A stretch of 32,491 nt of DNA from Microthrixaceae bacterium. Lineage in GTDB: Bacteria; Actinomycetota; Acidimicrobiia; Acidimicrobiales; Acidimicrobilacustridaceae. Positions 7,157 through 21,374 of the stretch are shown here, piece by piece. How positions within the stretch are numbered: the stretch's first letter is position 1; every line of letters begins with the position of its first letter. A program made the position numbers and the translations under genes. The notes beneath the pieces were generated by a model. That model was not told where the DNA came from, ran no database searches, and saw nothing but the letters and a program-made list of their open reading frames with translations. The stretch covers positions 1 to 32,491 of the forward strand of contig CANFQA010000026.1 in NCBI GenBank assembly GCA_947449015.1, read 5' to 3'.

Positions 7157-7633
7157 GTGGACACCTGGATCTTCCTCGGCGTGTTAGCGGCCGCCAGCGT
7201 GCTTGTGCTGCGCGCCTATGGGTGGGCCATCAGTGGGTATACGCCGCCTCCGCCGCGCAGCGACCTGCGCTCGATCGAGGCATTCCAGTCAGACCGCGAA
7301 GGTGAGACCGAGTTCGACCTGGGCGTGCATTGGAAATCAACCGACGACGTCGGTGCGCAGTGGCACCTGTGGTGGATCGTTCAAACCGGCGAACTTGTCG
7401 GGCTGCGAACACCGGCATTTCCGCCACCGCCAGGGCCTGCGTATTACCAAACACGCCAGATCATGCAGTTCCAGCTCTACGCAAACGTTCCCTACAGCGG
7501 CATGAAGGTGCTCGGACATCTCGAACACCGACCATCGCTCGGACTGTCCCAACATCTGCGAGATCTGCCGAACGGTCTCGACGTGCTGTGTGGTGGAACC
7601 TACGGCGAGGATGACGCCGAGGTCACCAGCTGA
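7157..7633 (+). CDS. Small N-terminally membrane-anchored protein of unknown function
   Basis: A 158-residue product with one N-terminal membrane segment (residues 4-27) and a soluble domain rich in aromatic residues (QWHLWWIVQTGELVG; YYQTRQIMQFQLYANVPYSG). I do not recognise the family. The GTG start lies 9 bp after the molybdoenzyme stop, so the two are likely co-transcribed. The 3' end overlaps the convergent propeller-like gene by 11 bp. Good reading-frame integrity and GC-rich codon use support it as a real gene. Confidence 0.65.
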   Translation: MDTWIFLGVLAAASVLVLRAYGWAISGYTPPPPRSDLRSIEAFQSDREGETEFDLGVHWKSTDDVGAQWHLWWIVQTGELVGLRTPAFPPPPGPAYYQTRQIMQFQLYANVPYSGMKVLGHLEHRPSLGLSQHLRDLPNGLDVLCGGTYGEDDAEVTS

Positions 7634-8876
7634 GTGTGCTGACCGTGGTGAACGTGCAGGAGTAGATGCGACGATCGGTGCCGACCGCCGGGAACAGCAC
7701 GGACTGCATGAGACTGCCGGAGTCGACACGAGTGACCTCGGCACCGGTCACGATGTCGCGCACGACGTACTGCTCCATCCACCGCTCGTTGTCATGGTGA
7801 TGACTGAGGAACAGACCGTTGTCGCTGTCGAGAATGAGATGACTTCCGTGGTTCTGCTCCACGCTCCAACTCGGCGTGAGCGAACCATCTGCGGCGATGA
7901 CGAAGCCGGCCAGCACACCGTTGCCACTGTCGTACCCAACAGCCATTCGACGATCGGGGTCGATGAGCGGCGGATTGGCGATGACCCCGCCGGGAAGGCC
8001 GCAGACCTCGGTAAGTGAAACCTCCGCGGTTTGGAGATCCACGCGCACCAGATGCAGTGGCGCCTCATTGGCCCCGACTCCGCGGAATGTTCCGATGTAG
8101 TTCTGACTTCCCTCGCCGTTATCGAGGAACCATGCGGCACCCAACGTGATGACGGCATCCCAGCCGTAGGACTGACCTTCCATGGTGCGATACCGAGCCA
8201 TGAACGATGCGTCGGCCAACAGTTCCGAGCCATTCCAAACGGCTCGCAGAAGCGAGGTGTCGCCCACGACATACACGGTGTCACCATCAGCCGACAGCCG
8301 GGCAATGGATCGTTCAGGCAGATCGCAGGTGGCAACGATCTCGAGCGTGACTGGATCGAGCACCAGCAACTGCGTGCCAGCCATGTCGGGATCCTGCTCG
8401 GCGCCCGGCAACGTTCCACCGAAATCCTTGGTGACGACGTGGCCGGAGGACAAGGTGACGAAGCTGTTGTAGGGCCGCTCACGCGGCAATGTGGCCGAGG
8501 CCAGCACCTCGAGTTCGGGACTCAGGCGATGCGCGTGATTGCCGAACACTGCAAGCAATGAGCCGTCGGCCAGCACACCGACGCCGCCGGGCCAGCGGGC
8601 ACCACCGGGGAGATCGTCGATGCGAGCAAGACATTCGAGGGTGACAGGATCGATTCGTTCCACCCAGGCGGTCGTGGTCTCATCGACAGCATTGCCCTGA
8701 AGAAACGCCCGACCTGCAGCATCGAGCACGACCATGGTGGCCCCAAACGCGTCTCGGGAGACGACGGTCGGAGTTGCGCCGGACAGGCCGACGAACGCAC
8801 CGGCCCGCGTCTGTTGGCGACGTGAGCCACCGTCCTCGGTGAACCAAGGTTCTCGAGTTGCGTCGCCCGAGTTCAC
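7623..8876 (-). CDS. Beta-propeller-like protein in the sulfatase operon
   Basis: A 417-residue soluble protein made of repeating beta-rich units (VERIDPVTLECLARID; LLVLDPVTLEIVATCDL; HLVRVDLQTAEVSLTE; YVVRDIVTGAEVTRVD). The pattern of 'label-strand, turn, strand' is that of seven- or eight-bladed propellers such as PQQ-like or SMP-30-like folds. No signal peptide or lipobox is visible. A His-rich loop (SHHHDNERW near residue 375) could bind metal or substrate. The GTG start overlaps the sulfatase stop as GTGA, so it is translationally coupled to that enzyme. Arylsulfotransferases are also propellers, but I cannot find their catalytic motifs here, so I leave the function open. Confidence 0.7.
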   Translation of the reverse strand: MNSGDATREPWFTEDGGSRRQQTRAGAFVGLSGATPTVVSRDAFGATMVVLDAAGRAFLQGNAVDETTTAWVERIDPVTLECLARIDDLPGGARWPGGVGVLADGSLLAVFGNHAHRLSPELEVLASATLPRERPYNSFVTLSSGHVVTKDFGGTLPGAEQDPDMAGTQLLVLDPVTLEIVATCDLPERSIARLSADGDTVYVVGDTSLLRAVWNGSELLADASFMARYRTMEGQSYGWDAVITLGAAWFLDNGEGSQNYIGTFRGVGANEAPLHLVRVDLQTAEVSLTEVCGLPGGVIANPPLIDPDRRMAVGYDSGNGVLAGFVIAADGSLTPSWSVEQNHGSHLILDSDNGLFLSHHHDNERWMEQYVVRDIVTGAEVTRVDSGSLMQSVLFPAVGTDRRIYSCTFTTVSTLSW

Positions 8877-11155
8877 TGGCGGGTCATATCCGAACGCTGC
8901 TGAGCTTCAGCAGCTTGCTTCGCCTCGTCCTTCTTGAACGGCACCAGTTCGATCTCGACCGAATCAAGCACACCTTCGAACGGGAACGAGTCGCAATAGC
9001 GGGGACTGACCGGCAAACCACAGTCGTAGCCGACCGATGCGCCCACGCTCGAGATGACGCGCATCACGAAGGGGATCTCGACCGAACCGTGAACCTCTCC
9101 GTTGATGAGGAGATGCGCAGCACCGTTCTTGCGAATGCGCTGGAAATCGACACCGACCACCGAGGCGCCGACCGGCACCTCGATATCGGATTCGACGACC
9201 TGATGTTCGCCAAGGCAGTTGTAATCAAACACGAGTCGTTCGTTCTGCAGGAACACACTCAAGCCCGAATTGCCATTACCCACTGCGTAGATGACACCGT
9301 TCTGGCCAGCCTGTCGATCGATGTTGGCAAACAACTTCCAACTACGTCCGGCCACTGCAGCCGAGCTCTGCGAGGGCAGCGGCGCCATCGGTGGGCGATA
9401 CACATAGCGACGGTCATTGCTGTGGGTGAGGTGATCTCCGAAGCGCACGCCGAACAATTCGATGCCACGATCATCAAGCGGAAGCACGCCGAACTTCGCC
9501 GCCTCGCCCCACCACAGCTCGATGAGTTCCGCCAGCTTCTCCGGGTTTGTGGCTGCGAGATTCGTGCACTCAGAGGGGTCAACGGCAAGGTGGTACAGCT
9601 CCCAGTCATCATCATCGAATGACTCGCCGGGGGTGTGGCGCGTAACGGCCTTCCAGCCTTCTGCGTAGAGCGCCCGATGACCGACCATCTCGAAGTACTG
9701 GACCGGATGCGATGTGGGCGCGTCGACCGCAGCTGGATCGAAGCTGTAGGCCAATGAGGACCCCGCCACTGGGAACTGTTCGAGACCCTTGTACACCGAT
9801 GGCGCCTCAACGCCCACAACATCGAACACGGTGGCGGCGAGATCGGTGACGTAATGGAACTGTCGACGAATGCCACCGGCATCAGCGATGCCATTTGGCC
9901 AGTGCACGATCAGCGGCACATGCACGCCGCCCTCATGGGTGTTCTGCTTGTACCACTTGAACGGCGTGTTACCGGCCTGGGCCCAGCCCCACGGATAGTT
10001 GGAATGTGAGTTCGGACCGCCGATGGTGTCGAGATGCGCGACGGCTTCATCGGGGGTCTCGATCATGAAGTTGAAGAACTTCATTTCGTGGAGCACGCCA
10101 AACGGGCCGCCCTCCTGGCTCGCACCGTTATCGGACATCACCATGAACACGGTGTTGTCGAGCTTTCCGAGCTTCTCGAGTGCATCAATGAGACGACCGA
10201 TCTGCACGTCGGTGTGCTCAAGGAACGCTGCGTAGGCCTCCTGCAGGCGGGCAGCAAGCACACGATGATTCTCCGGAAGCGTGTCCCATTCCTCGACGCC
10301 CGGGTTCCGGGGGGCGAGCTGTGTGTCTGGGCTAACGATGCCGATCTCACGCTGCTTTGCGAACCAGCGCTCACGGGTGACATCCCAACCTTCGTCATAG
10401 CGACCGCGATGCCGATCGAGATAGTCCTGCGGCGCCTGATGCGGTGCATGTGTGGCACCGAATGCGATGTACGAGAAGAACGGGCGGTCGGGTCGCACCG
10501 AGGTGCTGTCATGAATGAACTCGATGGCCTTGTCGATGAGGTCCTCGGTGAGGTGATAGCCCTCATCGGCAGTCTTCGGCGGATCGATCCGATGGTTGTC
10601 GTAGGTGAGATCGGGGTTGAACTGATCGGTCTCGCCGTCGAGGAATCCGTAGAAGCGATCGAAGCCGCGCTGCAGCGGCCATGCGTCATACGGGCCGGCA
10701 GCCGATGCTTCATCCATGGGACACAGATGCCACTTGCCGAGCGCGAACGTGGAATAACCCTTGTCGCGCAGCACCTCGGCCATGGTGGTGGCATGCGGGG
10801 TGATCTTGCCGGTCATATGCGGAAAGCCGGTGTTCCAATTAGAAACACTGCGCATGCCGACGGTGTGATGGTTGCGACCGGTGAGCAGCGACGCGCGCGT
10901 CGGTGAGCACAGCGGTGTCACATGGAAGTTCGTGTAACGAAGACCACCAGCGGCGAGGCGATCAATATTGGGCGTTACGAGATCGGAACCGAAGCAGTTG
11001 AAATGTGAGAAGCCAAGATCATCGAACAAGATGACAACGACATTGGGCGCGTCGGCTCCGGGATGAATGGGCTCTGGCCACCACGGAGTGGACTCCGCCT
11101 GGGTGTTGCCGATCGACCCGCCGAATTCCGGTCCAACGAAAGGAGTGTCACCCAT
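8873..11155 (-). CDS. Type I arylsulfatase (formylglycine-dependent), cytoplasmic
   Basis: A 760-residue alkaline-phosphatase-superfamily sulfatase hydrolysing sulfate esters. Residues about 38-60 carry NVVVILFDDLG (the metal-binding Asp pair). The formylglycine signature CSPTRASLLTGR places the modified Cys at residue 83, and GKWH follows near 140. MSDNGASQEGG holds further metal/sulfate ligands, and Lys/His residues follow in WYKQNTHEGG. A C-terminal jelly-roll-like domain (about 600-735) is typical of the long bacterial arylsulfatases. There is no signal peptide, so the substrate must be imported. It depends on a formylglycine-generating enzyme not seen here. An in-frame GTG at 11161 overlapping the SDR stop is an alternative start. 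Confidence 0.92.
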   Translation of the reverse strand: MGDTPFVGPEFGGSIGNTQAESTPWWPEPIHPGADAPNVVVILFDDLGFSHFNCFGSDLVTPNIDRLAAGGLRYTNFHVTPLCSPTRASLLTGRNHHTVGMRSVSNWNTGFPHMTGKITPHATTMAEVLRDKGYSTFALGKWHLCPMDEASAAGPYDAWPLQRGFDRFYGFLDGETDQFNPDLTYDNHRIDPPKTADEGYHLTEDLIDKAIEFIHDSTSVRPDRPFFSYIAFGATHAPHQAPQDYLDRHRGRYDEGWDVTRERWFAKQREIGIVSPDTQLAPRNPGVEEWDTLPENHRVLAARLQEAYAAFLEHTDVQIGRLIDALEKLGKLDNTVFMVMSDNGASQEGGPFGVLHEMKFFNFMIETPDEAVAHLDTIGGPNSHSNYPWGWAQAGNTPFKWYKQNTHEGGVHVPLIVHWPNGIADAGGIRRQFHYVTDLAATVFDVVGVEAPSVYKGLEQFPVAGSSLAYSFDPAAVDAPTSHPVQYFEMVGHRALYAEGWKAVTRHTPGESFDDDDWELYHLAVDPSECTNLAATNPEKLAELIELWWGEAAKFGVLPLDDRGIELFGVRFGDHLTHSNDRRYVYRPPMAPLPSQSSAAVAGRSWKLFANIDRQAGQNGVIYAVGNGNSGLSVFLQNERLVFDYNCLGEHQVVESDIEVPVGASVVGVDFQRIRKNGAAHLLINGEVHGSVEIPFVMRVISSVGASVGYDCGLPVSPRYCDSFPFEGVLDSVEIELVPFKKDEAKQAAEAQQRSDMTRQ

Positions 11156-11157
11156 GA

Positions 11158-12000
11158 TCACTTCACTCCCATGGGCAGCATCTCGGGGGTGAGCCCCTGC
11201 TGCTGACGATCATTGCGATGGGCAACCCGGGTATGGGTCGACGCATGAGTCAGGACCCAGAAGCGACCTTCGACGATGGCATCGGTGACATTGCCGGCAA
11301 CGACCGCAGGATCGAGCGCAGTGGTTTGCATGACCGACTCGAGCATCTCCATCGACACCGACTCGGGAGTACGAAGACCAAGATGTGCTGGCGCGTTGCG
11401 GGTGGACTCGAAGATCTTGGTGCGAACCAGTTCGGGGCACAGGCAGCTCACGCCGACACCAGTGCCGGCCAGTTCCATGACCAGCGCTTCGGAGAGACCG
11501 ACAACGCCGTACTTGGCGGCGTGATACGCCCCGAGCATTGGCGTGGCACAGATACCCGCCTCTGATGCCGTGTTGACGATGTGGCCCTCACCCTGCTCAA
11601 TCATGAGCGGCGTGAACGCCTGCACGCCGTAGGCGACACCCAAGAGATCAACACCAACAACCCAGTCCCATACCGCGGGCTTGGTGCGCCAGGTAGAACC
11701 ACCGGATGCAACACCAGCGTTGTTGCACAAAACATGCACTGCGCCGTAGGCAGCGACTGCGGCATCGCGCAGTGCTGCGACCTGCGCGGCGTCGGAGACA
11801 TCGCACACCACGGCGGTTACCGCAGCGCCGTCAGCGAGAAGTCGCGCCGCCTGTGCATTCAGTACCTCAGTCTCGATATCGGCCATGACGACCGACATCC
11901 CCTCGGCAAGGAAGCGCTCGGTAAGCGCGAGTCCGATACCTGACGCGGCGCCGGTGACAACTGCGACCTTGCCGTTGAGCTGCATGCCCTGAAGTTCCAT
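11158..12000 (-). CDS. Short-chain dehydrogenase/reductase, classical, NAD-type
   Basis: A 280-residue classical SDR. It shows TGAASGIG (residues 16-23) for cofactor binding, Asp41 at the end of beta-2 (prefers NAD), NNAG (93-96), and the catalytic set Ser146, Tyr159, Lys163 (Ser-x12-Tyr-x3-Lys). The C-terminal extension (SVSMEMLESVMQTTALDPAVVA...) resembles SDRs of steroid, terpene or other alicyclic alcohol metabolism. The start at 12000 is supported by AAGGGG 6 nt upstream; in-frame ATGs further up would cover that site. It is first in the operon with the sulfatase and propeller genes, so oxidation of an alcohol released by desulfation is a reasonable inference. It diverges from the halohydrin-dehalogenase-like gene. 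Confidence 0.9.
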   Translation of the reverse strand: MELQGMQLNGKVAVVTGAASGIGLALTERFLAEGMSVVMADIETEVLNAQAARLLADGAAVTAVVCDVSDAAQVAALRDAAVAAYGAVHVLCNNAGVASGGSTWRTKPAVWDWVVGVDLLGVAYGVQAFTPLMIEQGEGHIVNTASEAGICATPMLGAYHAAKYGVVGLSEALVMELAGTGVGVSCLCPELVRTKIFESTRNAPAHLGLRTPESVSMEMLESVMQTTALDPAVVAGNVTDAIVEGRFWVLTHASTHTRVAHRNDRQQQGLTPEMLPMGVK

Positions 12001-12020
12001 TGAGATCCCCTTGTCGTGTA

Positions 12021-12049
12021 TTGACATCATTACTGTCAGAACCTACGTT
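12021..12049 (+). promoter_or_regulatory. Predicted sigma-70-type promoter for the halohydrin dehalogenase-like gene
   Basis: A perfect -35 TTGACA (12021-12026), a 17-bp spacer and a -10 TACGTT (12044-12049) are correctly spaced, about 53 nt upstream of the ATG at 12102. It is one of the better promoter matches in the window. Confidence 0.5.
12022..12038. promoter_or_regulatory. Inverted repeat TGACA-N7-TGTCA, candidate operator
   Basis: Half-sites TGACA (12022-12026) and TGTCA (12034-12038) form a 5-7-5 dyad overlapping the -35 box of the rightward promoter. It lies about 20 bp upstream of the leftward SDR start. The position fits a dimeric repressor controlling both directions. No regulator gene is adjacent. 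Confidence 0.35.
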
Positions 12050-12101
12050 CGGCAAGCGCGCTCACCGGCGCATCTACTGTTCCAGCGACGGAGGAAACAC
12101 C

Positions 12102-12863
12102 ATGAGCCAGGACCAATCCAACTCCACTGAACGTCGTATCGCCATCGTCGGCGACGCCAAGCATTACGTCGGCCCCGATCTCACCAGAATGCTCGCGGCA
12201 ACCGGCCACGATCTCGTCGTTGGTGATGCATCGGCCGAGCTCATCGCCGAGCTTGAGGCCATAGGCGCAGCGGTTGTTTCCCTTGATCGCACCTCGAACA
12301 TGACCCGACCCGAGTCCGCCCCCGCACTTGTCGCCGCCGCGCTCGAACACTTCGGTCGTATCGATGCCGCCGTGCTGGCTTCCGGCCAGATCATCGGCGG
12401 CCGGTTCATCAACTCCACCCCCGAGCAGTACCAAACCCTCTTCGATGGCTGCATGACTGCGCCATACAACTTCCTTCACGCGGTGCTGCCCACAATGATT
12501 GAGCAGCGCTCCGGCCAGATCCTGGTCATCACCAGTGCATCGGGAGCACGCCCCGTGTTCGGCGCTCCGCTGTATTCGTCGGTGCGCGCCGGGGCGAACA
12601 TGCTTGTGAAAGCAGTAGCCCAGGAAGTCGCCGCGAAGAACGTGCAGGTCAACGCTGTCGGCACCAACTACATGGACTTCCCTGAGTTCCACGCCGCGGT
12701 CGGTTCGCATGATCCGGCTGTGCGGGCCGAGGTGGAAAAGCAGGTGCCGTTGGGTCGTCTCGGTCAGATGCCCGAGTTCGCATCGTTCTGTCGGGTCTTT
12801 CTTGACGGAACCAGCACCTTCACCACCGGGCAGTACATCTCCTATGCCGGCGGCTGGGCCTGA
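12102..12863 (+). CDS. Halohydrin dehalogenase-like SDR-fold protein
   Basis: A 253-residue SDR-fold protein lacking the SDR catalytic Lys and the TGxxxGIG cofactor motif. Instead it shows the halohydrin dehalogenase triad Ser145-x12-Tyr158-x3-Arg162 (YSSVRAGA; HheC has YTSARAGA). At the former cofactor loop it has VGDAKHYVG, close to HheC VTNVKHFGG, giving x4-Tyr22-x-Gly24 of the T-x4-F/Y-x-G motif with Gly17 in place of Thr. GTNYM (187-191) matches the halide-pocket loop GPNYL of HheC. Such enzymes turn vicinal haloalcohols into epoxides plus halide and open epoxides with azide, cyanide or nitrite. GGAGGA (12090-12095) 6 nt upstream fixes the ATG. A longer in-frame extension is non-coding. 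Comparison sequences are from memory. It could be a related SDR branch with another activity. Confidence 0.75.
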   Translation: MSQDQSNSTERRIAIVGDAKHYVGPDLTRMLAATGHDLVVGDASAELIAELEAIGAAVVSLDRTSNMTRPESAPALVAAALEHFGRIDAAVLASGQIIGGRFINSTPEQYQTLFDGCMTAPYNFLHAVLPTMIEQRSGQILVITSASGARPVFGAPLYSSVRAGANMLVKAVAQEVAAKNVQVNAVGTNYMDFPEFHAAVGSHDPAVRAEVEKQVPLGRLGQMPEFASFCRVFLDGTSTFTTGQYISYAGGWA

Positions 12864-13101: not shown

Positions 13102-13130
13102 TTGTGGTCGAACGCCTGTTCGGCTACAAC
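13102..13130 (+). promoter_or_regulatory. Predicted promoter giving a leaderless mRNA for the DnaQ/GIY-YIG gene
   Basis: TTGTGG (13102-13107), a 17-bp spacer and TACAAC (13125-13130) are followed after 7 nt by the GTG at 13138. Transcription would begin at or next to the start codon. This favours GTG 13138 over the upstream in-frame TTG at 13102. Confidence 0.35.
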
Positions 13131-13137
13131 TGCTCAG

Positions 13138-14835
13138 GTGCTTCCCCGTCCGATCGAACACGCGCAGCTCTCCCTTGATGACCTTGGCACCCCGCTGCGT
13201 GAGGTCACCTTCTGTGTGATCGATCTCGAAACCACCGGAGGCTCCCCCGCCACCAGCGGCATCACCGAGATCGGTGCGGTCAAATTGCGCGGCGGCGAAT
13301 GCCTCGGCACGTTTCAGACGCTGGTCAACCCCGGGTGCGCGATCCCACCCGCGATCACCGTTCTGACCGGCATCACCCAAGCCATGGTGTACCCCGCTCC
13401 GCGCATTGAAAATGTGCTGCCCACGCTTCTCGAGTTCATTGGCGACGCAGTCATCGTCGCTCACAACGCGCGGTTCGATCTTGGTTTCATCCAAGCTGCC
13501 CTCGAACGCGACCAACGACCCCGACTCACGAACCGATCGGTTGACACCGTTGCGCTTGCCCGCCGTCTTGTGCGTGACGAGGTTCCCAACTGCAAACTCG
13601 GCACGCTCGCCGAACGACTCCGCCTCGCCCATCGCCCCTCGCACCGCGCGCTCGATGACGCACTCACCACTGGTGATCTCCTGCATCTGTTGATCGAACG
13701 AGCGGGGCGACTCGGCGTCACCGGCCTCGATGATCTCCTCGCCCTTCCCAAGATGGCCGGCCATGCGCAAGCAGCCAAACTTCGCCTCACCGATGAACTT
13801 CCGCGCACCCCAGGCGTGTACATCTTCCGCTCGGCGGCAAACGATGTGCTCTATGTGGGCAAAGCCACCAATCTGCGTGCCCGCGTGCGCTCGTACTTCT
13901 CGGGAGATGAACGTCGCAAGGTCGGTGCACTCCTGCGCGAGACCATTCGCATCGATCACATTGATCAACCCCATCCGCTGGCGGCTGCGGTCCACGAGGT
14001 GCGCCTCATCCATCGCCACACGCCGCAATACAACCGTCAGTCGAAGGACTGGTCGAAATACGTCTACGTCCGACTCACCCTTCACGAGACCTACCCACGC
14101 CTGTCCATCGTCAAGGACATTCGTCACGATGGTGATCTCCACATCGGACCGCTGTCCTCGCGAAGCGCGGCACAACGCGTCATCGATGCCATTCACACCT
14201 CGGTTCCGTTGCGTCGCTGTTCAGCACGGGTCTCAGCTCGCTCACAGCGCGAGGCTCCCTGCACCGCCGCGCAACTCGGTGTGGCGTTGTGCCCATGTGC
14301 CGGCGGCGTCGATCCAGCTGACTATGCACTGGTCGTCGAGCGAGCGGTGCGCGGCCTCACCATCGAACCCGAGCTGCTCCTTGCGCCGCTTACCGAACGA
14401 CTCACTGCTCTCGCCGGCGAGGAACGCTTCGAGGAGGCAGCCGATGTCCGTGATCGTGCCGAAGCGCTCTCCGCGGCACTTCGTCGTCAGCGCCGATTCG
14501 AGCGACTTCGTCGTGCCGGACGACTACGCCTCGAGCTGCCCGACGGCAGCGGGGCCGATCTCGATGCCGGTCGACTCGTGCGGGCCTGGGGTGCCGGCGC
14601 CCGGCCCGCACCCGATGGTTCGCCATCGGTCACGCTGTTCGAACCCGGGACCCCACTCCCACCCCTGAAGCGTGAACTCGCCGACGAACTGACCTGCGTG
14701 GCTGCATGGCTCGAGCGCCATGCCCACGAACTCACCGTCACCTTTTGCGATGGAGAACTCACCTCGTTACTTCCCGAGGTTCCTTCGTTTGCACCCCGAC
14801 GCACCCCAGTGCTGTCAGGTGCGCTCGATCACTAG
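13138..14835 (+). CDS. DnaQ-like DEDDh exonuclease fused to a GIY-YIG/UvrC-like nuclease
   Basis: A 565-residue two-nuclease fusion. Residues about 20-190 are a DnaQ/epsilon-type 3'-5' exonuclease with Asp29 and Glu31 (VIDLETTGG), Asp114 (AHNARFD), and His169/Asp174 (SHRALDDA). Residues about 222-300 are a GIY-YIG domain (PGVYIF...LYVGKATNLRARVRSYF). Cys-rich and UVR-like parts follow (FEEAADVRDRAEAL). The UvrC C-terminal RNase H-like endonuclease and HhH domains are absent, so it could cut only on one side, as Cho does. The architecture matches actinobacterial proteins such as mycobacterial Rv2191 (from memory) and suggests DNA repair. The true start is uncertain: no Shine-Dalgarno site precedes either candidate. 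Its stop interlocks with that of trpD. Confidence 0.88.
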   Translation: MLPRPIEHAQLSLDDLGTPLREVTFCVIDLETTGGSPATSGITEIGAVKLRGGECLGTFQTLVNPGCAIPPAITVLTGITQAMVYPAPRIENVLPTLLEFIGDAVIVAHNARFDLGFIQAALERDQRPRLTNRSVDTVALARRLVRDEVPNCKLGTLAERLRLAHRPSHRALDDALTTGDLLHLLIERAGRLGVTGLDDLLALPKMAGHAQAAKLRLTDELPRTPGVYIFRSAANDVLYVGKATNLRARVRSYFSGDERRKVGALLRETIRIDHIDQPHPLAAAVHEVRLIHRHTPQYNRQSKDWSKYVYVRLTLHETYPRLSIVKDIRHDGDLHIGPLSSRSAAQRVIDAIHTSVPLRRCSARVSARSQREAPCTAAQLGVALCPCAGGVDPADYALVVERAVRGLTIEPELLLAPLTERLTALAGEERFEEAADVRDRAEALSAALRRQRRFERLRRAGRLRLELPDGSGADLDAGRLVRAWGAGARPAPDGSPSVTLFEPGTPLPPLKRELADELTCVAAWLERHAHELTVTFCDGELTSLLPEVPSFAPRRTPVLSGALDH

Positions 14836-16334: not shown

Positions 16335-18029
16335 ATGACTACCGGTGCGTTCGACCGCGATTCCGCCCTGCGCCGACTCGGCGAGACCCCCTTCGATGTC
16401 GTCATCATCGGTGGCGGTATCACTGGCGTCGGCTGCGCCCTTGACGCAGCCTCACGCGGGCTGCGCACTGCGCTCATCGAGCGCGACGATTTCTCCTCGG
16501 GAACCTCGTCCAAGTCCTCCAAACTCGTCCACGGTGGCCTGCGCTATCTGCAGCAGGGTGAGATCCGGCTCGTGTACGAAGCACTTCACGAACGCCAGCG
16601 ACTCCGGCGAAACGCCCCACATCTGGTCAAGGTTCTGCCGTTCCTCATCCCGATCTTCTCCTCAAAGGGCGTGGTATCCAAGAAACTCGCTCGAGCCATG
16701 GGCTCAGCGATGTGGATGTACGACTTCACCGGCGGCGCTCGCATCGGCAAGTTGCATAAACGAGTTTCCAAGGCCGAGGCGCTTGCTCTGTTCCCCACCC
16801 TTCCCGAACAGCGGCTCATGTCCTCGTATCTCTATTACGACGCCCGTGCCGATGATTCGCGACTGTGCATCACCGTGGCGCGCACCGCTGCGCTCGACTT
16901 CGGGGCCACAGTGGTCAACGGCGCTGCAGTCACCGGACTGCGCAAGAACGCCGCCGGACGCGTGTGTGGGGTCACGGTCCATGCCGATGGCCGCGATATC
17001 GAGGTTGAGACCGCATCAGTGGTCAACGCTGCCGGCGTCTGGGCCGACGATGTCATGGCCCTTGATGAGCCGGAACGTCGCCGCACCATCCGTCCCGCCA
17101 AGGGCATCCACATCACCGTGCCATGGCACAAGGTTCGTAATGACATTGCCGCGGTCATTCCCGTTCCCGGTGACAAGCGATCAGTTTTCGTTGTTCCGTG
17201 GGGAGACTTCACCTTCATCGGTACCACCGACACCGATTACAACGGCGGCATCGACGATCCCCAGTGCACTGCCGAGGACATTGAGTATCTGCTTCGAGCC
17301 ATCAACGGTTCGGTCACTACCGAAATCACTGTCGATGACATCGTCGGCACTTGGGCAGGCCTGCGCCCGCTGGTCGCCGATCCCGACGCCTCTGGTCGCA
17401 CGGCTGATCTCTCCCGCCGACACAAGGTGACCGAATCGCATAGCGGCGTGGTCACCATCACCGGCGGCAAACTCACCACCTACCGGGAGATGGCCGCCGA
17501 CACCATCGACGAGATCATCACGCACGTCCTCGATGACAACGCCCGTCGACGCATTCATCGTCGTTCCCGCACCAAGAAGCTCCGACTTCACGGCGCCGAG
17601 GGCTACGACAAACTCGTGTCCTCAGCTGACACCATCTCGTCGCTGGGCGGTGACGTCGTGCGTCATCTCGCCGACCGGTACGGCAGCGATGCGCGCACCG
17701 TGCTGGCTCTTGCTGAGAGCGATCCCGATCTCGCTAACCCGCTTGTGCCGGGTCTTCCTTATCTGCGAGCCGAAGCAGTCTTCGGCGTGCGCACCGAGAT
17801 GGCCCGCACCCTCGACGATGTGCTGAGTCGCCGCACACGCGCCCGCCTGCTGGGCCGGGACGATTCCGCCGCGGCAGCCCGTTCGGTGGCCGAGCTCATC
17901 GCCCCGGATCTCGGTTGGGACAGCGCGGATATTGAACGCGAGGTCGCTCAGTACAACCGGCTCATCGACGAGGAACGCAACGTGCCGAAACTTCCCGAAG
18001 TCGCCCTCGACGTGGCTCTCGGTCACTGA
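16335..18029 (+). CDS. glpD: FAD-dependent glycerol-3-phosphate dehydrogenase GlpD
   Basis: A 564-residue membrane-associated flavoprotein oxidising sn-glycerol-3-phosphate to DHAP and passing electrons to quinone. FAD-binding GGGITGVG is at residues 26-33, with SSGTSSKSSKLVHGGLRYL (54-72) characteristic of GlpD. Later blocks include PAKGIHITVPW, FVVPWGDFTFIGTTDTDYNG, and GLRPLV...ITGGKLTTYREMA. The C-terminal DAO_C helical domain is complete, and the length is normal. The stop shares one base with the next start (TGATG), so it is coupled to the AGPS-like gene. The same pairing of a GlpD and an AGPS-like flavoprotein exists around mycobacterial Rv2249c/Rv2251 (from memory). Confidence 0.94.
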   Translation: MTTGAFDRDSALRRLGETPFDVVIIGGGITGVGCALDAASRGLRTALIERDDFSSGTSSKSSKLVHGGLRYLQQGEIRLVYEALHERQRLRRNAPHLVKVLPFLIPIFSSKGVVSKKLARAMGSAMWMYDFTGGARIGKLHKRVSKAEALALFPTLPEQRLMSSYLYYDARADDSRLCITVARTAALDFGATVVNGAAVTGLRKNAAGRVCGVTVHADGRDIEVETASVVNAAGVWADDVMALDEPERRRTIRPAKGIHITVPWHKVRNDIAAVIPVPGDKRSVFVVPWGDFTFIGTTDTDYNGGIDDPQCTAEDIEYLLRAINGSVTTEITVDDIVGTWAGLRPLVADPDASGRTADLSRRHKVTESHSGVVTITGGKLTTYREMAADTIDEIITHVLDDNARRRIHRRSRTKKLRLHGAEGYDKLVSSADTISSLGGDVVRHLADRYGSDARTVLALAESDPDLANPLVPGLPYLRAEAVFGVRTEMARTLDDVLSRRTRARLLGRDDSAAAARSVAELIAPDLGWDSADIEREVAQYNRLIDEERNVPKLPEVALDVALGH

Positions 18030-19555
18030 TGGCCGGCGAACCCACCGCACCCATCGCCTTCGCCGGTTCGGCGGCGGTAGCAAGCCGCCTGCGTACAAAC
18101 CACATTCAGGTCACCGAGCAGGTGCTCGAACGGATTCGCTCGACTGGTGCCGAGGTGCACCTTGATGCACCGCAACTGGCCGAGGCCAGCCGCGACTGGT
18201 GGCCGCTTGCAATGACCTGGGCAACCAACGATGAGGTCGGCGCCCTTGCTGCAGTGATTACTCGACCCATCGAGGTCACACAGGTGGCCGAGATTCTTCG
18301 CATCTGCAATGAGCAACGCATCCCAGTGACTCCAGCCGCTGGCCGCAGCGGCGTTGTCGGCGGCTCAGTCCCACTATTCGGTGGGGTCCTGCTTGATCTG
18401 TGCGGACTCTCCGGGATCCGCGCAGTCGATCCCGACTCTCTCGTGGTCGATGTGCTCGCCGGAACGTTCGGTGACCTGTTCGAGGAAGAACTGCAGGCCG
18501 AACATGGCCTCACCGTCGGACACTGGCCGCAGTCGATCGCGCTGTCCACAGTCGGCGGCTGGTTGGCCTGCCGCGGCGCCGGCCAGCTCTCCAATCGCTA
18601 CGGCAAGATCGAAGACATCGTCATCGGTCTCGATGTCGTACTTGCCGATGGCACGACACTCACCACTGGTGGCCATGCCCGCCAATCTGCGGGCCCCGAT
18701 CTCAATCAGTTGTTCATCGGTTCCGAAGGAACTCTCGGCGTCATCACTGGCGCTCGACTCCGCGCTCATCGAATCGCCACCTCAACCCACCGTTCGGCAT
18801 GGAGCTTCCCCACCTTCGAAGCCGGCGCCGATGCCTGTCGCCGCATCACACAGCGCGGACTCGCGCCGGCGGCATTACGTCTCTACGACGCTGCCGAAGC
18901 TGACCGCAGTTACTCCACTGGCGATGTCGCTGTCCTGCTCGTATTCGACGAGGGCGATGCCGAGGTCGTCCGGGCTGCAGATGCCATCACTGGGCAGGAA
19001 TGCACCAGCGGCGAAGTCACCGGCACCCCTCTCGATGATGCGCTTGTCGAAAAGTGGCTCGGACATCGCAATGATGTTTCATCTCTTGAGGCATTGATTT
19101 CTCGCGGCTATGTGGTTGACACCATGGAACTCACCGTTGCCTGGTCGCAGCTTGACGCGCTCTATGTCGCAGTTCGCGATGCCATCGCCGCGGTTCCCGG
19201 AGTCATGGCCGCCAGTGCGCATCTTTCCCACAGCTACACCGATGGGGCATGTCTCTATTTCACCTTCGCCGGTAAACCACTTGAACCCACTGGCGCCGCG
19301 ACCGAATCGCTCTACATGCAGTGTTGGAACGAAGGAACCACCATGGCTCTGCGTCATGGCGGTTCGCTCAGTCATCATCACGGTATTGGTCTCAACCGCG
19401 CCCGCTTCATGAGCGACGCGATTGGTGCCGGCGCCATGACTGCTCTGGGTGCCATCAAGGGTGCGCTTGACCCCAACGGCATCCTCAATCCGGGCAAACT
19501 GGGGCTTGTTTCACCGTTTGGTGAACCCCTGTTCCCGATGGAGCCCGGCTCATGA
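18029..19555 (+). CDS. Alkyldihydroxyacetonephosphate synthase-like FAD-binding oxidoreductase
   Basis: A 508-residue VAO/PCMH-family flavoprotein. The FAD_binding_4 domain (about 78-250) has PAAGRSGVVGGSVP, LSTVGGWLACRGAGQLS and FIGSEGTLGVIT. The FAD-oxidase_C domain contains LSHSYTDGACLYFTF, with Tyr403 aligning to the catalytic Tyr of alkyl-DHAP synthases, and GSLSHHHGIG with the three-His motif at 449-451. Both features are hallmarks of AGPS, which replaces the acyl chain of acyl-DHAP by a fatty alcohol to make the ether bond. No covalent-FAD His signature is seen. The neighbours make (GlpD) or could feed (FGGY kinase) the DHAP pool. A role in ether-lipid synthesis is inference; bacterial homologues are largely uncharacterised. 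Confidence 0.85.
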   Translation: MAGEPTAPIAFAGSAAVASRLRTNHIQVTEQVLERIRSTGAEVHLDAPQLAEASRDWWPLAMTWATNDEVGALAAVITRPIEVTQVAEILRICNEQRIPVTPAAGRSGVVGGSVPLFGGVLLDLCGLSGIRAVDPDSLVVDVLAGTFGDLFEEELQAEHGLTVGHWPQSIALSTVGGWLACRGAGQLSNRYGKIEDIVIGLDVVLADGTTLTTGGHARQSAGPDLNQLFIGSEGTLGVITGARLRAHRIATSTHRSAWSFPTFEAGADACRRITQRGLAPAALRLYDAAEADRSYSTGDVAVLLVFDEGDAEVVRAADAITGQECTSGEVTGTPLDDALVEKWLGHRNDVSSLEALISRGYVVDTMELTVAWSQLDALYVAVRDAIAAVPGVMAASAHLSHSYTDGACLYFTFAGKPLEPTGAATESLYMQCWNEGTTMALRHGGSLSHHHGIGLNRARFMSDAIGAGAMTALGAIKGALDPNGILNPGKLGLVSPFGEPLFPMEPGS

Positions 19556-19935
19556 ACATTTTTGATCGTCGCGTGCTGCTTAGCGGCGCTTTCTCCGGTC
19601 TGTTCTTCGCGTTACCGGCTGCCATTGCCCAGCGAACCGTGTTCGCCGATGCCCCACTCAATGGCGTCATGCTGTTCGTCATCTTCTTCGCCGGAGCACT
19701 CGCTGGGTATGCCGCAGCTCGCCCAATGCCACTGCATGCACTGATGCATGGTGCCGCGGCGGGACTCATCACCTTCCTCGGGCCCGAAGCGGTCTATCTC
19801 GTCGCCAAGCACGAGTTCCCGAATCCTCTTTCGCTCATCTTTGGCGGCCTGATGTTCGCCTCGCTTGGCACCATCGGCGCCTACATCGCCATCTGGCGTG
19901 ACGCCCAGGACGCGGCAAAAGCGACGCGTTCATGA
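19552..19935 (+). CDS. Small integral membrane protein in the glpD operon
   Basis: A 127-residue, very hydrophobic protein with about four membrane helices (roughly 7-27, 36-56, 64-80, 94-114) and a short basic tail. I do not recognise the family. ATG overlaps the AGPS-like stop (ATGA) and its own stop overlaps the kinase start (ATGA), so it is translated as part of the same unit. Possible roles are a membrane anchor or a permease subunit for a polyol or lipid substrate; this is speculation from position. Confidence 0.75.
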   Translation: MNIFDRRVLLSGAFSGLFFALPAAIAQRTVFADAPLNGVMLFVIFFAGALAGYAAARPMPLHALMHGAAAGLITFLGPEAVYLVAKHEFPNPLSLIFGGLMFASLGTIGAYIAIWRDAQDAAKATRS

Positions 19936-21374
19936 GCATCCTCGTCATCGACGTCGGAACCTCTGGTGTGCGTGCGGCGGTGGTGCATCCCGATGGCACC
20001 ATCACCAACGAACATCACATCGAGGTGCTGCCTGATTCCCCGATGGCCGGACTCGTCGAGTTCGACGCTGCCACCATGGCCCGAGCATCGCTCGATGTGG
20101 CCCGGCGCACACTCGCCGAAGTTGGCGCTGTTGACGCTGTCGGCGTTGCCACCCAGCGAGCCTCATCGATCGTCTGGGATCGCTCCACTGGCGAACCGCT
20201 CGCACCGGGACTTGGTTGGCAGGACCTACGTACCGTCGGCGACTGCTTGGTGCTGCAAGCCGAAGGCCTCCGATTCGCCCCCAACCAATCGGCCACCAAA
20301 TTCACACACCTGCTCTCGCTCGTCGATCCCGAGCGCACTCGAGATCTCTGCTTGGGCACTGTCGATTCCTGGATCATCTGGACCCTCACCGACGGTGCCG
20401 CTCATGTCACCGATGTGAGCAACGCCGCAGTCACCGGGCTGATGCATGCCGATGCTTCAGGCTGGGACGAATCGATCCTCACGCGACTCAACATCCCCAT
20501 CGACGCCATGCCCCGGCTCGTTGACTCAAGTGGCCCAATCGCCCCGGCTCGCGCGCTTGAAGGCGCGCCAATGATCTGCGGACTCGCCGGCGATCAGCAG
20601 GCATCGCTCATCGGCCAAAGTTGCGTGGAAGCCGGGCCAGCCAAGATCACCTTCGGCACCGGCGGCATGCTCGACATGGTCGTCGGACCGAATCGTCCCT
20701 CCTTCGCCGGACGCGGCAGCAACGGATCGTTCCCAATCGTGACCTGGCGTCGTGGCGAGGAACTCGTCTGGGGACTTGAGGCCATCATGCTGTCGGCCGG
20801 AACCAACGTTGAGTGGCTGCGTGACGACCTCGGCATCCTCGACAGCGTCGCCGATTCCCACACCGTTGCTGCACAGTGTGATGACACTGACGGCGTTGTT
20901 TATGTTCCGGCGCTGCTCGGCCTTGGCACACCGCGCTGGGATTTCGGTGCCCGAGGTGCGCTGTTCGGTCTTACCCGCGGCAGCGGTCGTCCGCAGATCG
21001 TGCGCGCGGTGCTCGAGGGAGTTGCTCATCGCGGTGCCGATCTCGTCGAAGCCGCCGAGGCTGATTCGGGCACATCAATCGGCACATTGCGTATCGATGG
21101 CGGCATGAGCGCAAACACCACCTTCGTGCAGGCGCTTGCCGATGCCACTGGCCGATCGGTCGAGGTGTCGCCCGTGCTCGAGGCCACCACGCTCGGTGCC
21201 GCCTATCTCGCCGGCCTCACCATTGGCACCTGGTCGAGTTGGGATGACATCGCCGGGGCATGGAACCCTCGCACCACCGTGGAGCCCGCCCGCAGCCTCG
21301 ACCGGGCGCAGTGGGCCCGAGCGGTCGACCGAGCTGCGCAATGGATCCCTGAGCTGTCGGCGCTCGACTTCTAA
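19932..21374 (+). CDS. FGGY-family carbohydrate kinase, glycerol-kinase-like
   Basis: A 480-residue ATP-dependent kinase of the FGGY family. The N-terminal phosphate motif is VIDVGTSGVRAAVV. GTVDSWIIWTLTDG...HVTDVSNAA and GLAGDQQASLIGQ (catalytic Asp221) are GlpK-like. The C-terminal lobe has LRIDGGMSANTTFVQALAD. However, glycerol-contact positions known from E. coli GlpK differ: the Glu of QRE is Ala (QRASS), the contact Tyr of PYFSGTK is Asn (APNQSATK), and the contact Phe after GTGC appears to be Met (GTGGML). The substrate may therefore be another polyol or a glycerol derivative. It is the last coupled gene of the glpD operon; the cupredoxin gene starts 5 bp later. Confidence 0.88.
   Translation: MSILVIDVGTSGVRAAVVHPDGTITNEHHIEVLPDSPMAGLVEFDAATMARASLDVARRTLAEVGAVDAVGVATQRASSIVWDRSTGEPLAPGLGWQDLRTVGDCLVLQAEGLRFAPNQSATKFTHLLSLVDPERTRDLCLGTVDSWIIWTLTDGAAHVTDVSNAAVTGLMHADASGWDESILTRLNIPIDAMPRLVDSSGPIAPARALEGAPMICGLAGDQQASLIGQSCVEAGPAKITFGTGGMLDMVVGPNRPSFAGRGSNGSFPIVTWRRGEELVWGLEAIMLSAGTNVEWLRDDLGILDSVADSHTVAAQCDDTDGVVYVPALLGLGTPRWDFGARGALFGLTRGSGRPQIVRAVLEGVAHRGADLVEAAEADSGTSIGTLRIDGGMSANTTFVQALADATGRSVEVSPVLEATTLGAAYLAGLTIGTWSSWDDIAGAWNPRTTVEPARSLDRAQWARAVDRAAQWIPELSALDF

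Follow-up and report, generated by a model that had tools for sequence, protein, structure and literature searches.

A short-loop G-type halohydrin dehalogenase from an Acidimicrobiia bacterium and its recurrent linkage to formylglycine-type sulfatase genes

A stretch of 32,491 nucleotides (nt) of contig CANFQA010000026.1 of a Microthrixaceae bacterium (assembly GCA_947449015.1), here called the window, carries a halohydrin dehalogenase (HHDH) gene at positions 12102 to 12863. The enzyme groups with G-type HHDHs in sequence, phylogeny and predicted fold, and in several genera its gene lies close to genes for formylglycine (FGly)-type sulfatases; these relationships and the gene linkage were observed directly. 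We consider it probable that the enzyme performs one step of a module together with an FGly-type sulfatase and dehalogenation partners. The features of the gene are as follows.

12102..12863, + strand: gene assigned to the G-type HHDHs, 253 amino acids (aa), stop included, ATG start
12150..12173, + strand: motif 1, GDAKHYVG, residues 17-24, in place of the TGxxxGxG cofactor loop of short-chain dehydrogenases/reductases (SDRs)
12534..12587, + strand: catalytic Ser145-x12-Tyr158-x3-Arg162, from translation and alignment
12660..12674, + strand: GTNYM, residues 187-191, aligned with the nucleophile/halide loop GPNYL of HheC
12036-12710, - strand: open reading frame (ORF) from the ORF list, overlapping the HHDH gene on the opposite strand

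An earlier note on this DNA had described Ser145, Tyr158 and Arg162 at HHDH spacing, a degenerate cofactor loop that keeps x4-Tyr-x-Gly, and GTNYM at the position of the halide pocket. All three observations held: the translation confirmed the triad, Tyr22 and Gly24 are in place, and the alignment pairs GTNYM with the GPNYL of HheC. The Thr position of motif 1 is occupied by Gly17. The triad is no chance pattern: its Ser, Tyr and Arg were common to 45/45 aligned sequences (the query and 44 relatives), as was the motif-1 Gly, and the motif-1 aromatic residue was Tyr or Phe in 44 of them. Fifteen rows of this alignment belong to the window's genus and hence are not independent. Loci L107 and L114 (mis-started translations) and L044, L049 and L097 (near-duplicates) were left out of both the alignment and the tree. 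Where classical SDRs have TGxxxGxG and YxxxK, the protein has GDAKHYVG and YSSVR.

The closest solved relatives are HHDHs. A phmmer search of PDB sequences returned AbHheG (8h8y, E 1e-94), its mutant 8hqp, 7wkq (2e-89) and HheG (5o30, 7e-50), followed by a gap, with HheC and FabG only near 1e-20. The alignments to 8h8y and 7wkq were gapless, and the Foldseek titles name the former AbHheG (~60% identity) and the latter a halohydrin dehalogenase (~58%), both from an Acidimicrobiia bacterium. A tree of 66 rows was computed from the query, its 44 relatives, eight PDB reference sequences (among them 7b73 and 8xxb, HheB-like chains under SDR deposition names), and 13 SDR paralogues from the query's own genome. 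It came from a quick IQ-TREE search with approximate likelihood-ratio (SH-aLRT) support only, without bootstrap, and has long branches for HheA, HheC and the SDRs. In this tree 48 G-type rows, including 5o30, 8h8y and 7wkq, formed one clade (SH-aLRT 99), opposite which the 13 SDR paralogues fell (99). AbHheG adjoined the query's subclade (94), 7wkq lay just outside (92 for the enclosing branch), and HheG sat in a four-row group that is a separate branch of the clade (99). The comparison with SDR outgroups that the note had proposed thus placed the query with characterised HHDHs and not among ordinary SDRs.

An AlphaFold2 model built on 13 sequences gave a pLDDT of 83.8 and a pTM of 0.85, with weak residue blocks at 141-160, the catalytic loop, and at the C-terminus (pLDDT 47-67). 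When this model was compared with the PDB by Foldseek, ranks 1-25 were all chains or mutants of AbHheG, 7wkq or HheG, and the first SDR appeared at rank 26. In Pfam the protein matched SDR-type families above their cut-offs, and the best 25 of its 191 NCBIfam matches were SDR-superfamily models, all below cut-off. For this protein both libraries offer nothing but SDR-type models, so HHDH membership is undecidable from them. On its sequence the enzyme is a G-type HHDH of the short-loop lineage (AbHheG/7wkq group). The note had left a choice between an HHDH and a close sister lineage; sequence, tree and predicted fold support an HHDH within the G-type lineage that includes HheG, and the proposed separate variant subclass did not stand.

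That subclass had been suggested because motif 1 has Gly instead of Thr. The same Gly occurs in 7wkq (VGDASFYVG), AbHheG has Ser, and Thr is retained in just 5 of the 45 sequences, in which the position reads A 26, G 6, T 5, S 3, N 3, C 1 and H 1, so the substitution does not mark a new group. The strict published form of motif 1, T-x4-F/Y-x-G, is found neither in the query nor in 7wkq or AbHheG, and two natural variants at the Thr position are mentioned, citing Zhou 2023 and Wang 2022, in the portion of a recent article available to us (PMC11976700). Since 7wkq, AbHheG and these variants also break the strict Thr, Gly17 is no bar to HHDH membership. The Thr position is thus unconstrained in this lineage, to a greater extent than the published passages at hand state. 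Because of this degeneracy, database mining with the strict motif would miss most of the lineage (40/45 sequences).

The note had also called HHDHs rare, an overstatement as far as this group is concerned: 42 of 148 related genomes had a match at E 1e-40 or better, among them 16 of 21 in the window's genus, as did 54 of 395 genomes drawn over the class. Within its own genome the next best match to the HHDH has only 25% identity. A plasmid search gave one distant match (34% identity), and one viral scan gave no HHDH relatives.

Upstream of the HHDH gene lies a divergent set of genes that includes a sulfatase.

12031..12101: intergenic region of 71 nt between the divergent SDR and HHDH genes, from ORF coordinates
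11158..12030, - strand: classical SDR oxidoreductase with a TGAASGIG loop and YHAAK, first gene of the divergent set
8873..11161, - strand: sulfatase, PF00884 (231.9 bits), 762 aa, with a C-S-P-T-R formylglycine motif
7623..8876, - strand: 417-aa protein that has no Pfam or NCBIfam match and follows the sulfatase gene

The 71-nt region is likely a shared promoter region, with the gene starts set mechanically. The SDR/sulfatase and sulfatase/417-aa gene junctions are each 4-nt overlaps by mechanical ORF ends, and because of these overlaps the three genes likely form one operon. The sulfatase combines PF00884 with the C-x-P-x-R motif of the FGly (S1-type) enzymes, and in its cluster of 38 members the motif reads CSPTR in 36, CSPSR in one and SSPPR in one. 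Inside the genus the gene order of the whole neighbourhood is conserved, trpD and an exonuclease gene included, so linkage there tells little.

To look beyond the genus, ORFs were clustered around HHDH loci and then around loci of the sulfatase and of a DinB_2 protein that neighbours the HHDH. The recurrent set comprised a sulfatase, a DinB-like protein, a TetR regulator, an RNase-Z-like metallo-hydrolase and a haloalkane dehalogenase, with more sulfatases, SRPBCC proteins and DUF2855 proteins as further members. Two genes were scored as linked if the gap between them did not exceed 3 kb; each genus counted once, and the counts were compared with random placement. The sulfatase places are those among the matches listed, with matches below about 50% identity left out, and short fragments may be missing. 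Also left out were the DinB fragment G060:C61 and the haloalkane-dehalogenase fragment G080:C10:150184; G064 and G113, of one genus, were outside the size table, and the sole effect is a haloalkane dehalogenase-TetR denominator that is smaller by one. Greedy ORF calling misses the HHDH in L092, L101, L103, L104, L105, L111 and L114, and presence was scored by tblastn.

HHDH and sulfatase genes were linked in 6 of the 15 genera that have both, among the matches listed; the six, of which the window's genus is one, span three families, and random placement, which corrects for descent within genera only, predicts 0.05 (P 2e-11). The HHDH was also linked to the DinB-like gene (4/14 genera, P 5e-8) and to the TetR gene (4/16, P 1.5e-7). 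Among the matches listed, the sulfatase was linked to the DinB-like gene in 4/16 genera (P 2e-7), to the haloalkane dehalogenase in 10/31 and to TetR in 13/25. The remaining pairs were DinB-TetR (5/15), haloalkane dehalogenase-TetR (9/29) and DinB-haloalkane dehalogenase (1/20, P 0.055). The HHDH and the DinB-like gene also tend to occur in the same organisms: outside the genus, both were present in 14 genera, one only in 9 and 9, and neither in 71 (P 4e-6); by genomes the numbers are 14, 12, 12 and 89 (P 2e-5). The arrangement of HHDH and sulfatase genes varied. The sulfatase gene lies 21 nt upstream on the same strand in L045; in L098 it is downstream of the HHDH gene, also on the same strand, and TetR separates them. 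The two genes are convergent in L110, convergent with TetR between in L111, and divergent with an RNase-Z-like gene between in L113. In the open-access literature we found no report of this linkage; subscription papers lay mostly outside that search.

The linkage was replicated with 36 HHDH loci from the draw over the class, taken from genomes outside the first 148; L202 and L216 duplicated discovery loci and were dropped, leaving 34. Five core partners were scored with length-limited queries, and no overlap with the HHDH gene was allowed. Twenty loci around MshC, from discovery genomes that have an HHDH, served as control; some replication and control loci are cut short by contig ends. At least one core partner was found in 16 of the 34 HHDH loci and at least two in 6, compared with none in the 20 control loci (Fisher test, 1e-4). 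Discovery loci outside the genus, scored likewise, had a core partner in 14 of 32 cases. Two replication loci are particularly complete. In L204 the HHDH, sulfatase and DinB-like genes are consecutive on the same strand, each overlapping the next by 4 nt if ORF ends are taken mechanically, and the other strand has matches to TetR, the RNase-Z-like hydrolase, a haloalkane dehalogenase, SRPBCC and a second sulfatase. In L209 the HHDH and DinB-like genes are divergent from a series of DUF2855, TetR, unknown, haloalkane dehalogenase (380 bits), sulfatase, second haloalkane-dehalogenase-like and SRPBCC genes. The two haloalkane-dehalogenase-family genes flank the sulfatase gene; the second scores 234 bits, under the 265 cut-off.

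The identity of the partners was examined with family models and solved structures. The haloalkane dehalogenase of the recurrent set scores 474 bits with NF002043 (cut-off 265) and matches the solved enzymes 4mj3, 6f9o, 5esr and DhlA; the L191 member matches 4mj3 and 6f9o. In its 12-member cluster HG(E/N)P(T/S)W and QDWG are present in 12/12 sequences and GxGHF in 9/12. The RNase-Z-like metallo-hydrolase scores 401 bits with NF000806 (cut-off 363). The DinB-like protein of L043 matches PF12867 above cut-off and the mycothiol transferase model NF047843 with 47.9 bits against a cut-off of 170; two other members gave nothing at 1e-10, and those of L204 and L209 have no Pfam match at 1e-4. PDB matches of the DinB-like proteins are at 2e-4 and 3e-4 (8fx9, E 3e-4), conserved His residues including H-x3-H occur in the 33 aligned members, and an AlphaFold model on three sequences only (pLDDT 48.8) was too poor for use. 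These similarities hint weakly that the DinB-like protein may be a mycothiol transferase. MshC-like matches occurred in 148/148 genomes, none above cut-off, and CysS-type genes match too; a comparison of DinB-like genes with mycothiol synthesis therefore cannot discriminate.

Sulfatase and haloalkane dehalogenase genes also form clusters of their own. In L174, L184, L185, L187, L190 and L191 operon-like arrays consist of TetR, sulfatase, haloalkane dehalogenase, SRPBCC and further sulfatase genes, with no HHDH in the stretch; the RNase-Z-like hydrolase is also present in L174, L184, L185 and L191, and not in L187 and L190. These HHDH-less clusters are a separate module of sulfatase and haloalkane dehalogenase.

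In HheC and HheG, Ser and Tyr bind the substrate oxygen, a Tyr-Arg pair shuttles the proton and the anion occupies the former cofactor pocket. By homology, Ser145 and Tyr158 would bind the oxygen atom of the substrate, a beta-substituted alcohol or an epoxide, and Tyr158, helped by Arg162, would act as proton acceptor or donor. A small anion would leave into, or attack from, a pocket formed by motif 1, which corresponds to the NAD(P) site of SDRs, and the GTNYM loop, and no nicotinamide cofactor would be used. For HheG, 2-chlorocyclohexanol has served as a dehalogenation test substrate (PMC11976700). The many sulfatases nearby suggest release from a sulfate ester as the first step, which would provide the hydroxyl group on which the HHDH acts. 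The FGly-type sulfatase would thus free the hydroxyl, after which the HHDH would close an epoxide on it, expelling a neighbouring halide, or would open an epoxide. The occurrence of haloalkane dehalogenases beside sulfatases, sometimes with an HHDH, suggests a halogen-bearing substrate, so that halogenated sulfate esters are the presumed substrates. In the window's genome, further members of the module may be the haloalkane dehalogenase, DinB-like protein and RNase-Z-like hydrolase encoded elsewhere.

Several observations weigh against such a module. No core partner was found in 18/34 replication loci and 18/32 discovery loci outside the genus, and random placement, as stated, corrects for descent only within genera; the varying arrangements and the control loci address descent above the genus in part, short of a full phylogenetic test. 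HHDH and haloalkane dehalogenase genes were within 3 kb in 0/21 discovery genera with both, and among the examined loci they co-occur only in L046/L048, L203, L204, L209, L230 and L231. In the window's own genome the DinB-like (C18), haloalkane dehalogenase (C31) and RNase-Z-like (C23) genes are unlinked to the window, and no TetR match passing 1e-25 was found. As for the enzyme, only Ser was tolerated in place of the motif-1 Thr in HheC and HheG, according to the passages seen of PMC11976700; 7wkq, an HHDH by deposition title, nevertheless carries Gly there. G-type HHDHs open bulky cyclic and internal epoxides well and are largely without dehalogenation activity on the chloroalcohols tested, as described in the accessible part of PMC10099379. 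This preference fits a large internal substrate and is just as much a warning that the natural reaction may be something other than halide release.

The most serious alternative, which we regard as unlikely, runs as follows: the enzyme may detoxify endogenous or environmental epoxides, such as those of terpenoids or lipids, by anion-assisted opening, with neighbours that are scavenging or stress genes under shared TetR-type control. Good epoxide opening and poor activity on the chloroalcohols (PMC10099379, part seen) agree with such a role, and mycothiol transferases, of which the DinB-like neighbour is a distant relative, could trap epoxides with mycothiol. Epoxide detoxification leaves unexplained, however, why sulfatase and haloalkane dehalogenase genes recur together in 10/31 genera, among the matches listed, with an HHDH at some of these loci. 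It is also improbable that the linkage is inherited synteny within one class, devoid of functional meaning, around an HHDH that works as an isolated enzyme. Conservation of the whole neighbourhood inside the window's genus and the 18/34 replication loci that have no core partner are what inherited order would give, but beyond the genus HHDH and sulfatase genes vary in their order, strand and spacing (L045, L098, L110, L111, L113, L204), many other neighbours have no match in any other clustered locus, and core partners are absent from the 20 control loci. That the protein is an ordinary NAD(P)H-dependent SDR with an Arg after the Tyr by chance is hardly credible in spite of its Pfam and NCBIfam matches, since it has no TGxxxGxG loop, the Arg is present in 45/45 sequences, the tree sets it apart from the SDR paralogues and the top 25 structural matches are HHDHs. 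The module of HHDH, sulfatase and dehalogenation partners remains the preferred explanation.

A far more specific version of this module, which we offer as a long shot, is a so far undescribed pathway by which Acidimicrobiia-type actinobacteria would degrade natural halogenated sulfate esters, above all algal chlorosulfolipids. In danicalipin a secondary sulfate is flanked by chlorines. FGly sulfatases could remove such a sulfate and so expose a hydroxyl that has C-Cl beside it; the G-type HHDH would expel that chloride to give an internal epoxide, haloalkane dehalogenases would take other chlorines, the DinB-like protein, perhaps a mycothiol transferase, would capture the epoxide, and the TetR regulator would control the set. 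Chlorosulfolipids are natural molecules that bear precisely these groups. They were first described from a freshwater chrysophyte, marine ones are now seen that have up to 11 chlorines (PMC13413282), and malhamensilipin occurs in Poterioochromonas (PMC9147812), according to the excerpts of both articles that we saw. Some relatives seem to come from lake metagenomes, going by the title word 'LacPavin' and our reading of other sample codes. If true, the pathway would supply a natural function for G-type HHDHs and account for their preference for internal epoxides of large size. The alkyl-sulfate (sodium dodecyl sulfate) module of Psychrobacter was considered as a parallel and rejected, having a different gene set: AraC/XylS regulator, aldehyde oxidoreductase, alcohol dehydrogenase, alkyl sulfatase and fatty-acid-CoA synthetase, in the part seen of PMC10779009.

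Further observations concern individual genes. The haloalkane dehalogenase on C31 of the window's genome (L200:7462-8463) scores 414 bits with NF002043 (cut-off 265) and lies 46 nt upstream of a same-strand ORF that reads like an acyl-CoA dehydrogenase (both within G000:C31, L200:6267-8463), a neighbour that would suit dehalogenation of lipid-like substrates. Homologues of the 417-aa protein also follow sulfatase genes in L160 and L178; its sequence would possibly fit a beta-propeller partner of sulfatases. SDRs related to that encoded at 11158-12030 occur in a few distant HHDH loci (L115, 43%; L046 and L048, 31-32%). In the window itself, positions 13102-14835 (+) encode a DnaQ-like exonuclease domain (PF00929) fused to a GIY-YIG domain, and positions 16335-21374 (+) hold tandem glycerol-3-phosphate oxidase-like, FAD-linked oxidase and FGGY kinase genes, for which glycerol or ether-lipid metabolism is our guess; both regions are conserved in the genus.

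HHDHs are valued biocatalysts, and the natural role of most of them is still a question. The HHDH-sulfatase and sulfatase-haloalkane dehalogenase links turn this question into concrete substrate tests, and in the module desulfation would join dehalogenation in a single route for natural organohalogens.

Taken alone, the enzyme is a further member of the known HHDH family, of the short-loop G-type. With AbHheG (8h8y, 8hqp) it shares, besides the ~60% identity over a gapless alignment, the triad and the short N-terminal loop; the AbHheG pocket reads GTNFM, and AbHheG has Ser where the query has Gly at the motif-1 Thr position. With 7wkq, which a reference list suggests is probably the bio-nitration enzyme of Wang et al. 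2022, it shares the motif-1 Gly, the triad and the short loop, while ~42% of the residues differ. HheG of Ilumatobacter coccineus (5o30) belongs to the same clade, with ~40% identity, the triad and GTNYM, but carries Thr in motif 1, and its flexible loop is long: the aligned segment has 24 residues, compared with 12 in the query. This long N-terminal loop (HheG residues 39-47) is absent from the query, AbHheG and 7wkq. Many, not all, G-type homologues have it, and one has a short DPAE at this place, as stated in the portion seen of PMC11536340, so the long loop is not type-defining. HheC-, HheA- and HheB-type enzymes share the triad spacing and the motif-1 aromatic residue and Gly and are distant (about 1e-21 to 1e-16). 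With respect to gene context, a 2016 review notes, in the part available to us, that no more than two of the known HHDH genes share an operon with an epoxide hydrolase gene, and it leaves room for other physiological functions (PMC4989007). Among the window ORFs scanned with Pfam (the HHDH and 19 others) there is no epoxide hydrolase, and a sulfatase gene lies nearby instead. We infer that the new element is an HHDH module built on sulfatases instead of an epoxide hydrolase.
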